Assembly: GCA_944323995.1 (NCBI GenBank)
Contig: CALUUN010000002.1
Location: 62,001 to 126,000, forward strand
Direction of reading: 5' to 3'
Length of the DNA: 64,000 nt
Origin: Candidatus Gastranaerophilales bacterium
Lineage (GTDB): Bacteria; Cyanobacteriota; Vampirovibrionia; Gastranaerophilales; Gastranaerophilaceae
A program made the translations under genes and the position numbers. Positions within the stretch are counted from its first letter, which is position 1; every line of letters begins with the position of its first letter. The notes below the pieces were generated by a model. The model was not told where the DNA came from and did no database searches. It saw only the letters and a program-made list of their open reading frames with translations. This document shows, one piece after another, positions 30,853-47,341 of the stretch.

Positions 30853-31536
30853 TTACTTGTCCCACATAGACGGGGCACTTGGCTTTGAAGATTTATGTTC
30901 AGAAAATTTATAATCCTCACTAAATTTCATTCCATCCTGAAGAAATTTCATAAAACATGCGTAACTGTTCCAGGCACCACCATATAAACTGCAAGATGCT
31001 TTATCTTTTCTGTTAGCGTAGGAAGGATTATAATAACTTGGATTACCCGGCCAACCGCAACCAGTTGCTGAATAATTACATAGTTTTGTTGTATCCTTAA
31101 GATTCCACAAGCTAATCTCAAAAAAATCTCTGCCATAATCATCAACGCTTGCGCAATTTGTACTTATGCCGATATAATAATCTTTAAAAACTGAGGTGCC
31201 GCCATTTGTTCGCAATCGCCCGCAAGTCCCGTCTTTTAGAACAAAATATACCCAATCGCTATCATCATTTATCTTAACCACTGACAAGTATTTTCTAAAA
31301 TATTTGTTAAAAACAGGTTTTGCACCGGTTAATTCCCATGTCTGCCAATTGCCCTCCTCCGATACCGCACGTTCATTTACTTGCACCATCGTGCTGTAAA
31401 ATTTTCTTAACTTTGTTGCCGTGGTTAGCATATCATATTTGTTCATTAGTGTCGGGATTGTTAACGCTGCGACAATACCGATTATTGCTAAGGTTATCAA
31501 CACTTCGGCTAACGTGAAGGCGGCTTTATTTTTCAT
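30853..31536 (-). CDS. type IV pilin-like protein (pseudopilin) I
   Basis: 227 residues. A 6-residue leader (MKNKAA), then the class III pilin helix beginning FTLAEVLITLAIIGIVAAL. Glu5 of the mature protein is in place, but the residue before the cleavage site is Ala where prepilin peptidase normally needs Gly. The globular part has about seven Cys (TNCAS, LCNYSATGCGW, ASCSLYGG, YACFM), suggesting disulfides, and is not a standard major pilin. The start at 31536 is chosen for AAGGAG 6 nt upstream; an ATG at 31575 lies in the palindrome. Divergent HTH gene 31617 is the likely regulator. Confidence 0.85.
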   Translation of the reverse strand: MKNKAAFTLAEVLITLAIIGIVAALTIPTLMNKYDMLTTATKLRKFYSTMVQVNERAVSEEGNWQTWELTGAKPVFNKYFRKYLSVVKINDDSDWVYFVLKDGTCGRLRTNGGTSVFKDYYIGISTNCASVDDYGRDFFEISLWNLKDTTKLCNYSATGCGWPGNPSYYNPSYANRKDKASCSLYGGAWNSYACFMKFLQDGMKFSEDYKFSEHKSSKPSAPSMWDK

Positions 31537-31569
31537 TACTTTCTCCTTATATTCTTCTGATTTCATTAT

Positions 31570-31585
31570 GGACATAATTATGTCC
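31570..31585. promoter_or_regulatory. 16-bp perfect palindrome between pseudopilin and HTH gene
   Basis: GGACATAATTATGTCC is fully symmetric. It lies just upstream of the HTH gene's -10 (TATAAT, 31593-31598), in its -35/spacer region, and covers the divergent leader of the pseudopilin gene. This is the expected place for an operator of the XRE protein encoded next to it. Confidence 0.65.
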
Positions 31586-31616: not shown

Positions 31617-31883
31617 ATGCAAGAAGAAGTCAGAAAGAAAGAGTTGTCAAAGGCTCTGGGCAAAGTTGTCGAAAGGCTGCGCAAGCAGGCTAACCTCTCA
31701 AGCCGAACCCTCGCTTATGAAATGGGCATGTCAAAAACCACGTTTCTGCTTGCCGAACAGGGCAGACTGGATCCGCGAATTTCCACTTTTTGCAAAATTG
31801 CCGAGGCTTTTTATATGAAACCTGACGAATTTTTTTCGCTTGTGTTAAAAGAACTTCCCGAATGGTGGTTTCCGGCAGAATAA
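31617..31883 (+). CDS. XRE-family HTH regulator, 88 residues
   Basis: A single Cro/C1-type HTH domain: LGKVVERLRKQANLSSRTLAYEM, with the turn and recognition helix around GMSKTTFLLAEQGRLDP, then ISTFCKIAEAFYMKPDEFF. The C-terminal end is Trp/Pro-rich (ELPEWWFPAE). It is divergent from pseudopilin I with a perfect palindrome in between, so control of both genes is likely. The MshEN-like gene follows about 50 nt later. Confidence 0.88.
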   Translation: MQEEVRKKELSKALGKVVERLRKQANLSSRTLAYEMGMSKTTFLLAEQGRLDPRISTFCKIAEAFYMKPDEFFSLVLKELPEWWFPAE

Positions 31884-45654: not shown

Positions 45655-46686
45655 TTATTCAATACATACCGCATAGGTATATGTATTAAGAGAGTCTGGA
45701 GCGATATGTTTATAAGAATACGTAGATAATCGTCCCTCGTAGCCTCCTCCGCCAAAATAATACCTATAGACATATGTTGTAAGTTTAGACTGTTCCTCAC
45801 CACTCCATAAATAAAAAGTTCTTGATGAAGGATGTATTTTAAATCCCAACTCTTCAGCTTTAGCTGCAGCACCTAAAGGACCGGATGCAGAAATATAATC
45901 GGAAATTTCCTGAAGTTGAGCATTTGTAGGCATTTTATCTTTTCCGCCACAAGTAAGGACTGCGCCTAACCAATAATCATCGGCATTTATTACAGCTCCA
46001 CATCCTATAACATTGACCTTGCCTTCTGCAATTAACTCAGCACATTCAGAAGTACTAAAACCTTTTGGAGCAAATGGTGCAGTAAAACACGTTCCTCCAA
46101 TTTCGAAAGCACAATTATTTGCAAGCTTTTTAACATTTATAGAACGTAAATCTTTACCAGATGTATTAGGATTTTTAAAACCGTCAACATCATAAAGAAT
46201 TGCTAAACAGTCTGAACCTATTATTTGGTTGCTGTATGGATCCTGATGACAATCAGGGTTATATGCTACTACTGCGTTTACTCCGTTTGCAAATTGTAAG
46301 CCTATTGTTTCAGTATCCCAATTGTCCTGACCAAAGTTTTTAGAAGTTTTAATTTTAGTCATGTCAATTTCTTCATTTTCAGCGCCCCAGTAGACTTTAT
46401 CTGCAAAGCATGATGTTATGTCATCGTTTTTGCATACTTTGGTTATTTTAATATGTTTAGATAATTCATTCACGAACGCTTCAGTAGATGAATAACCAGC
46501 AAGAGTTCCTTGCGTATTCATAACCTTCAAAGATTCTTCAAGCTTACGTTGGAAAACCGTTGATGCTGTGTCCCATGCCTTTGATTGAAAATTCTGCACC
46601 AATGTCGGTATTGTCAGCGCTGCAACAATACCGATTATTGCTAAAGTTATCAGCACTTCCGCTAAAGTGAAACCTTTTTTAAACAT
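45655..46686 (-). CDS. type IV pilin-like protein (pseudopilin) II
   Basis: 343 residues. A minimal leader MFKKG, cut after Gly, then FTLAEVLITLAIIGIVAAL, the same helix as in pseudopilin I, followed by a long globular domain with about ten Cys (KVCKNDDITSCF, PDCHQDP, GSDCLAIL, NNCAFEIGGTCF, STSECAEL, LTCGG) and a Tyr/Gly-rich end. Much larger than a normal pilin; it may be a surface adhesin or tip subunit. AAGGAG precedes the ATG. Divergent from a small HTH gene. Confidence 0.87.
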   Translation of the reverse strand: MFKKGFTLAEVLITLAIIGIVAALTIPTLVQNFQSKAWDTASTVFQRKLEESLKVMNTQGTLAGYSSTEAFVNELSKHIKITKVCKNDDITSCFADKVYWGAENEEIDMTKIKTSKNFGQDNWDTETIGLQFANGVNAVVAYNPDCHQDPYSNQIIGSDCLAILYDVDGFKNPNTSGKDLRSINVKKLANNCAFEIGGTCFTAPFAPKGFSTSECAELIAEGKVNVIGCGAVINADDYWLGAVLTCGGKDKMPTNAQLQEISDYISASGPLGAAAKAEELGFKIHPSSRTFYLWSGEEQSKLTTYVYRYYFGGGGYEGRLSTYSYKHIAPDSLNTYTYAVCIE

Positions 46687-46708
46687 CTTCTTTCTCCTTC
46701 AAATTTAT

Positions 46709-46742
46709 AAAAGTATATTTTTATTAATAAAATAATACTTTT
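46709..46742. promoter_or_regulatory. 34-bp near-perfect palindrome between pseudopilin II and HTH gene
   Basis: Arms AAAAGTAT and ATACTTTT surround the core TTTTATTAATAAAA; 15 of 17 base pairs are symmetric. It lies 22 bp before the pseudopilin II start and about 67 bp before the divergent HTH gene, and is a likely operator. Confidence 0.6.
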
Positions 46743-46793
46743 AATAATGCAACAATTCTTTTGTTTTGTCAAGCAAGTAACAAGATTTAAATA

Positions 46794-46799
46794 TATAAT
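46794..46799 (+). promoter_or_regulatory. -10 box of small HTH gene 46809
   Basis: TATAAT ends 9 nt before the ATG at 46809, so the leader is at most a few bases and has no ribosome site. Confidence 0.5.
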
Positions 46800-46808
46800 T
46801 TACTTATT

Positions 46809-47039
46809 ATGCAATCCGACAAAATCACAAAAATTGATGCTAAAAAAGAAGTCAAGATCCTGCTTTCCAAAAAAGCATGGACAATGAAAATGCTTGCTGA
46901 AAAATTGTCCGAAGCCAGCGGGAAATACTATTCGCCGCAAAACCTCAACTACAGACTCTCGCAAAATAAACTCAAACTCTACGAAATGGGTTATATCTGC
47001 CAGATTTTAGGATTTAAATTAGAGTTTATTGAAATTTAA
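46809..47039 (+). CDS. small HTH-like DNA-binding protein, 76 residues
   Basis: Basic protein with a predicted helix-turn-helix: KKAWTMKMLAEKLSEASG, then YSPQNLNYRLSQNKLKL as the likely recognition helix, then MGYICQILGFKLEF. It resembles short phage-repressor-like regulators found in Firmicutes and gut bacteria, but differs from the two XRE proteins in the window. Divergent from pseudopilin II with a palindrome between them, so it probably controls that gene. Confidence 0.7.
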   Translation: MQSDKITKIDAKKEVKILLSKKAWTMKMLAEKLSEASGKYYSPQNLNYRLSQNKLKLYEMGYICQILGFKLEFIEI

Positions 47040-47042
47040 AGG

Positions 47043-47267
47043 CTATTTTTTAAAATAGTCACAAATTAACATTTTTTTACGGGGCAAAAGGTTTTTTACA
47101 CCTTCTACAAATTTGTTTTTGCGTGAATCTTCCAACTCTTTTTTCAGGATTGCTTTTTCTAAAACGACTTTGTTATAAAGTTCTGCACAAACGGAACTTT
47201 TGTCCGCGTGTTCTCTTAATCGGGCGAGTTGACGTTCTTTCTCCTTTATTAACAATTCTTTCTTCAC
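47043..47267 (-). CDS. small coiled-coil protein, 74 residues
   Basis: Not recognised. Highly charged single helix (MKKELLIKEKERQLARLREH, then KVVLEKAILKKELEDSRK) with a basic C-terminus. The GTG at 47267 is chosen because AGAGG lies 7 nt upstream; the frame extends to an ATG at 47315 that has no such site. It follows the vor operon by about 75 nt on the same strand. Its end is 3 nt from the convergent HTH gene. Confidence 0.5.
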   Translation of the reverse strand: MKKELLIKEKERQLARLREHADKSSVCAELYNKVVLEKAILKKELEDSRKNKFVEGVKNLLPRKKMLICDYFKK

Positions 47268-47341
47268 TGTAAACCTCTTTATTTCGACATGAAACAGAAT
47301 AATATTATTCCGCATTTTTTAAATCGACTTTTTAGGTGATT

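Follow-up and report, generated by a model that had tools for sequence, protein, structure and literature searches.

What does a small regulator gene do beside the gene of a pilin-like surface protein, and what is the long palindrome between the two for? This question is raised by a locus in a stretch of 64,000 nucleotides from a gut bacterium (Candidatus Gastranaerophilales), which as a whole is called the window here. The initial annotation had described a palindrome with two mismatched pairs between a pseudopilin gene and a divergent small helix-turn-helix (HTH) gene, and all of this was confirmed. The elements of the locus, and a second pair in the window, are as follows:

45655-46686, minus strand: type IV pilin-like (pseudopilin) gene, 343 amino acids, class III signal peptide FTLAEVLITL
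46694-46699, minus strand: Shine-Dalgarno sequence AAGGAG of the pilin gene
46709-46742, no strand: 34-bp palindrome, proposed double operator (dyad symmetry, conservation in orthologues)
46709-46722, no strand: 14-bp site 1, AAAAGTATATTTTT
46729-46742, no strand: 14-bp site 2, reverse complement AAAAGTATTATTTT
46744-46749, minus strand: -10-like element CATTAT of the pilin gene, conserved in orthologues as ATAATG on the plus strand
46767-46772, minus strand: -35 element TTGACA of the pilin gene, 17 bp from the -10 element, conserved in orthologues as TGTCAA
46794-46799, plus strand: -10-like element TATAAT of the HTH gene, 9 bp before the ATG, no Shine-Dalgarno sequence
46809-47039, plus strand: gene of a predicted 76-aa lambda-repressor-like HTH protein, at most a distant DUF6471 relative
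30853-31575, minus strand: second pilin-like gene in the window, 240 amino acids, arranged likewise
31617-31883, plus strand: XRE-type HTH gene divergent from the 240-aa pilin gene, 88 amino acids (HTH_31, 30.8 bits, cut-off 27)

The two gene products

Type IV pilins are recognized by a prepilin N-terminal motif (G/A followed by F(T/S)xxE) and a hydrophobic helix. The 343-aa protein carries these marks, its N-terminus is matched by solved pilins, and it scored above the cut-offs of PF07963 (27.2 bits, cut-off 21.2) and TIGR02532 (30.6, cut-off 16.3). It did not reach the named pseudopilin equivalogs (26.9 versus 88.85 bits for GspG, the others also below cut-off). Its predicted structure was poor (pLDDT 55) and thus unsuited to structure search. 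A C-type-lectin-like C-terminus (DUF1566/Lcl_C), considered because of a motif likeness, was discarded, since Pfam gave no support even at an E-value of 10. Two other pilins (L192:1451-2107 and L193:2214-2876) are about 30% identical to the window pilin in its C-terminal region and lack its middle part, suggesting that pilin domains are shuffled.

The HTH protein scored 19.4 bits with DUF6471 (PF20075), below the gathering cut-off of 26.8, and 15 of its orthologues match this family weakly (best E-value 1.8e-4). Judged by these scores, it may be called a distant DUF6471 relative at most. The model of the 76-aa protein (pLDDT 88.6) contains helices at residues 11-22, 26-37, 43-51 and 57-66, and its predicted fold is the lambda-repressor-like one (XRE/Cro-CI), a four- to five-helix domain with a central HTH. 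ClgR, HipB, SinR, C proteins and P22 c2 dominate the structural matches (Z 7-8.5); the Foldseek E-values are weak. The two HTH genes of the window had been assigned to different families, which is correct: BLASTP between them gave an E-value of 2.2, and HTH_31/HTH_3 is matched at 31.6 kb as opposed to sub-threshold DUF6471 here. A phage origin of the window HTH gene was also considered and rejected, phage records containing no match and only one weak PHROG being found.

The palindrome and its conservation

The palindrome AAAAGTATATTTTTATTAATAAAATAATACTTTT has exactly two mismatched pairs and can be extended to 36 bp, with a half of 18 bp. It occurs once in the genome, even if up to three mismatches are allowed. 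Shuffling this intergenic region with its dinucleotides preserved gave a P of about 0.02, so that a palindrome of this quality is only moderately unlikely in a single sequence. The decisive evidence is its conservation in orthologues. The 36-bp blocks of the window and 12 orthologues can be aligned without gaps (L204, identical to L203 in this part, was counted once), and over these 13 blocks dyad pairing was observed at 196 of 234 positions, compared to a mean of 101 and a maximum of 125 in 2000 composition shuffles. In L197 and L203, both arms have changed jointly. A single orthologue (L207), whose HTH frame is broken, also has a decayed left arm that has lost bases. Free variation of the palindrome among close strains, which had been named as a refutation of the initial interpretation, is therefore not what the orthologous blocks reveal.

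Each arm is itself a 14-bp site near AAAAGTATACTTTT, and the right arm of L201 is a perfect one. The two inverted sites have their centres at a distance of 20 bp, which corresponds to roughly two helical turns and would fit two dimers on one DNA face. Site and regulator are conserved together, and the HTH protein may bind to the palindrome in a sequence-specific manner. Further clades within this HTH family bear different conserved palindromes, for instance ATGAAATATATTCAT (read by eye). The strength of palindromes as a general marker of HTH-linked pilins was dismissed: throughout the genome, the best palindromes of these pilins were not clearly stronger than those of HTH-free pilins. Hence, operators can be claimed firmly solely for clades with orthologues.

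Promoters and transcripts

On the pilin strand, the motif TTGACA-N17-CATTAT is conserved among the orthologues, and the positions of its two elements predict a transcript start at about 46737. Counted from there, the palindrome extends from about -5 to +29. CATTAT is a weak -10 element (4/6 matches to the consensus); many other pairs possess a full TTGACA-N17-TATAAT. In the same genome, exact TTGACA was found ahead of 17/31 HTH-linked but only 3/37 HTH-free pilin genes (Fisher P 3e-5). Shine-Dalgarno sequences precede 29/31 HTH-linked versus 7/37 HTH-free pilin genes, the start codons of the latter being uncertain. Among 19 HTH-linked pilin genes with a good promoter, 12 have the centre of their best palindrome within -14 to +16 of the predicted start, while 100 shuffles yielded a mean of 5.6 and a maximum of 11.

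On the other strand, the ATG of 19 of 29 HTH genes is preceded by a -10-like element at a distance of 5-9 nt (mean 5.5 and maximum 14 in 2000 shuffles). As HTH genes facing pilins mostly lack a Shine-Dalgarno sequence as well, many of their mRNAs are probably leaderless. From the position of its -10-like element, this probably also applies to the window HTH gene; the lambda cI mRNA is likewise leaderless. The sequence TTTTGTCAA was examined as a -35 element of the HTH gene and rejected. Most orthologues have 21 bp between it and the HTH -10 element, the others about 11 bp more, and on the opposite strand it is the TTGACA of the pilin gene with the 17-bp spacer.

The HTH-free pilin genes (L033, L039, L126-L128, L136-L139, L148, L156-L158) are mostly devoid of a Shine-Dalgarno sequence and share repeated upstream sequences. 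One repeat, ACCCTCTACC(TTT/ACT)GGGAGAGGGT, lies approximately 15-38 bp ahead of the called start; another reads GCAAAAGCACCGC..AGAGTGCATTTGC. TTGCCA-N17-TATAAT is often located upstream, and several of the genes are situated at the ends of contigs. Their make-up suggests a second class of pilin genes with a construction of its own.

A constant regulator and an exchanged pilin

Sixteen orthologues of the window HTH gene were detected, in genomes labelled mainly Candidatus Gastranaerophilales, and 15 were read, L206 (rearranged or truncated) being left out. In all 15, the divergent neighbour is a pilin-like gene or a remnant of one; the remnant occurs in L200 and has relatives in the L194, L196 and L198 pilins. 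The linked pilins are of about eight kinds, range from 219 to 618 amino acids and are encoded mostly at differing chromosomal sites. The genes downstream in the window (orf90 and a VorC-like gene) recur in L201 only, where a 618-aa pilin of a different kind takes the place of the 343-aa one. Across species, the pilin varies behind a conserved regulator-operator half. Two records that carry this Gastranaerophilales locus are titled Muribaculaceae (L199, JAMPCZ010000006.1) and Fusobacterium sp. CAG:439 (L196, FR900466.1); they are probably mislabelled or mixed bins.

Pilin-HTH pairs in this and other genomes

A survey of FTLAEVL-type pilins for divergent HTH genes, compared with the background, had been suggested and turned out strongly positive. 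The 1.75-Mb genome contains 75 pilin-like genes (identified by searching the DNA for codons of F[ST]LAExLI; the reversed pattern, as a control, gave one match). A divergent HTH domain lies within 1 kb of 33 of them, nearly always within 265 bp, DUF6471-like domains included; the loci L034, L035 and L123 raise the number of pairs to 36. Neighbourhoods were read around search matches, and neighbours were called partly by eye on lists of open reading frames. Conversely, 31 of the 56 HTH_3 matches in the genome have a divergent pilin-like gene at a distance of up to 1 kb, which in 30 cases is 131-262 bp, although only about 0.5 such pairs would be expected if genes were placed at random and gene spacing is ignored. 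Gene spacing is insufficient as an explanation, since none of the 56 matches lies near a pilin-like gene in any other orientation. About half of the roughly 75 pilin-like genes are thus paired with a regulator of their own, which suggests a wardrobe whose surface proteins are gated individually.

The same arrangement was encountered in other genomes. G025 is a member of the family but of a different genus; among its 61 HTH_3 matches listed, 37 are divergent to one of 100 listed pilins, at distances of 116-210 bp, and in G022 this holds for 17/19 on the stretches where both lists are comparable. The DUF6471-like HTH genes are less strictly linked: within family f1, 28 of the 63 copies read face a pilin gene within 450 bp and 35 do not, and outside f1 none of 30 does. 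The number of pilin-like genes rises to 144 within f1; elsewhere it is mostly low, with exceptions such as G063 (77). Over 50 genomes, the numbers of pilin and HTH_3 genes correlate moderately (Spearman 0.45; HTH_3 counted among the matches listed, at most 58 per genome).

Regulator-pilin pairing had been supposed to have arisen twice or diverged strongly. An origin in two events is an understatement, since the divergent position in the 36 pairs is taken by members of two HTH families (HTH_3/XRE-like and DUF6471-like) or more.

Some further observations concern the distribution of these genes. Up to 144 FTLAEVL-type pilin genes are held by one 2.3-Mb genome (G055, G042, G003 and G025 are pilin-rich). 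In L149 (G000:C14:1-1600), a pilin gene faces two successive HTH genes, an XRE-type and a DUF6471-like one. Tandem duplicates of DUF6471-like HTH genes with no pilin nearby are present in L006, L007, L008 and L083 (G061, G081, G062 and G034), and matches of this type reach 20 in one genome of family f3.

Proposed mechanism and alternatives

With its near-consensus promoter, the palindrome at the start point and the small HTH gene reading in the opposite direction, the locus has the anatomy of a private repressor switch, and it is likely that each pair is such a switch for one pilin, within a repertoire sharing one assembly machine. The 76-aa protein would be made from a probably leaderless mRNA; its dimers would bind to the two inverted AAAAGTATACTTTT-like 14-bp sites at the start point of the near-consensus sigma70 promoter and repress the adjacent pilin-like gene, until some signal, or a lower level of the HTH protein, frees the promoter. 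In the other pairs, other HTH clades may use other operators at the same place, so that about 36 pilins would each be gated alone. For PilB, the genome revealed one strong match; PilC and the prepilin peptidase were each found once. Dozens of pilin-like proteins therefore probably depend on a single peptidase and a single type IV filament machine, which would be a reason for switching the pilins singly.

The position of the regulator site at the start point favours repression without proving it, and activation is the main rival. The HTH protein might activate its pilin gene, or act as a bifunctional switch like lambda CI whose double site recruits polymerase on one side. The pilin -10 element with its four matches would be compatible with activation, as would the HTH promoter, which has a -10 but no recognizable -35 element, as activated leaderless promoters do. 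Lambda PRM is an example of such a promoter. However, the palindrome lies downstream of the pilin -10 element, where activators rarely bind, the -35 element is perfect, and many other pairs have complete promoters. Activation is rather unlikely on these grounds.

Still less probable is the assumption that the pairs are horizontally spread mobile cassettes, in which the HTH protein mainly silences an incoming pilin gene and which reflect gene gain rather than regulated display. The occurrence of orthologous HTH-operator units with varied pilins at several chromosomal places, and the downstream neighbours shared with L201 alone, would agree with it. On the other hand, a non-systematic look brought neither terminal repeats nor transfer genes to light, and the HTH gene has no match in phage records. 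Moreover, mobility would be compatible with a private repressor switch.

Since the pilin mRNA is predicted to contain the palindrome in its 5' leader, shortly ahead of the Shine-Dalgarno sequence, an RNA element (a 5' hairpin or terminator) with the HTH gene as an unrelated neighbour was also considered. This is very improbable in view of the weak fold (-7 kcal/mol, z -0.77, equalled by 44/200 shuffles), the near dyad within each 14-bp arm and the retention of the HTH neighbour in all orthologues while the pilin changes. A switch by DNA inversion or the like, as in fim and mrp fimbriae, can practically be dismissed even though surface-fibre genes elsewhere are often phase variable (PMC9820224), since the promoter is not flanked by inverted repeats, the palindrome has no spacer that could be inverted, only one further short pair (12 bp, inside the HTH gene) was detected at 46500-47300, and by eye no recombinase-like gene was seen among the neighbouring open reading frames. 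Of the phase- or condition-specific display proposed initially, the condition-specific part is thus a reasonable inference, and the phase-variable part was not borne out, no invertible segment having been detected in that region.

Repression by a private regulator is accordingly the preferred reading. A divergent repressor-target pair is ordinary, but more than 30 of them for one protein class in a 1.75-Mb genome are not. We found no description of pilin-HTH pairs in Gastranaerophilales/Melainabacteria in the open-access literature searched. If true, the proposal accounts for the abundance of pilin-like and one-domain HTH genes in these small genomes, predicts that every HTH protein acts solely on its own promoter and offers a natural set of regulator-operator pairs with differing specificities. 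In its broadest form, a family of gut bacteria would address dozens of pilins singly via private regulator-operator modules, evolution would swap the pilins and keep the regulator-operator unit, and each cell would select for every gene separately what coats its shared filament machine; this form is put forward tentatively, with slightly more doubt than trust.

Comparison with known systems

The invertible-promoter fimbriae (fim, mrp) share with these loci the on/off control of surface fibres but differ by their invertible element, as none was found here. Modular type IV pilins with large C-terminal regions behind a standard N-terminus, in many architectures, have been reported (PMC8179133) and resemble the proteins studied here; the part of that paper at hand describes the proteins, not private linked regulators. 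In Proteus mirabilis, 10 of 17 fimbrial operons are accompanied by a gene for a small regulator, and MrpJ, encoded by the last gene of its chaperone-usher operon on the same strand, acts on flhD and other operons (PMC9820224). MrpJ and PapX (fimbriae of Proteus and E. coli) are thus similar in that many fibre loci per genome have a small regulator gene. Unlike these, every linked HTH gene here is divergent and none stands at the 3' end of the operon on the same strand, the protein concerned is of the type IV pilin kind, and the units have separate operators.

Closest in build are the C proteins of restriction-modification systems and the lambda-type CI/Cro repressors, which are small proteins of the lambda-repressor fold as well; the modelled HTH protein matches C.AhdI, C.BclI, SinR, HipB and P22 c2 with Z 7-8. 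Leaderless regulator mRNAs are known from these systems, and so are operator sites that occur in pairs at a promoter which is divergent or adjacent. What separates the present pairs from them is the target, a pilin-like gene, and the repetition of the arrangement dozens of times per genome with differing operators.
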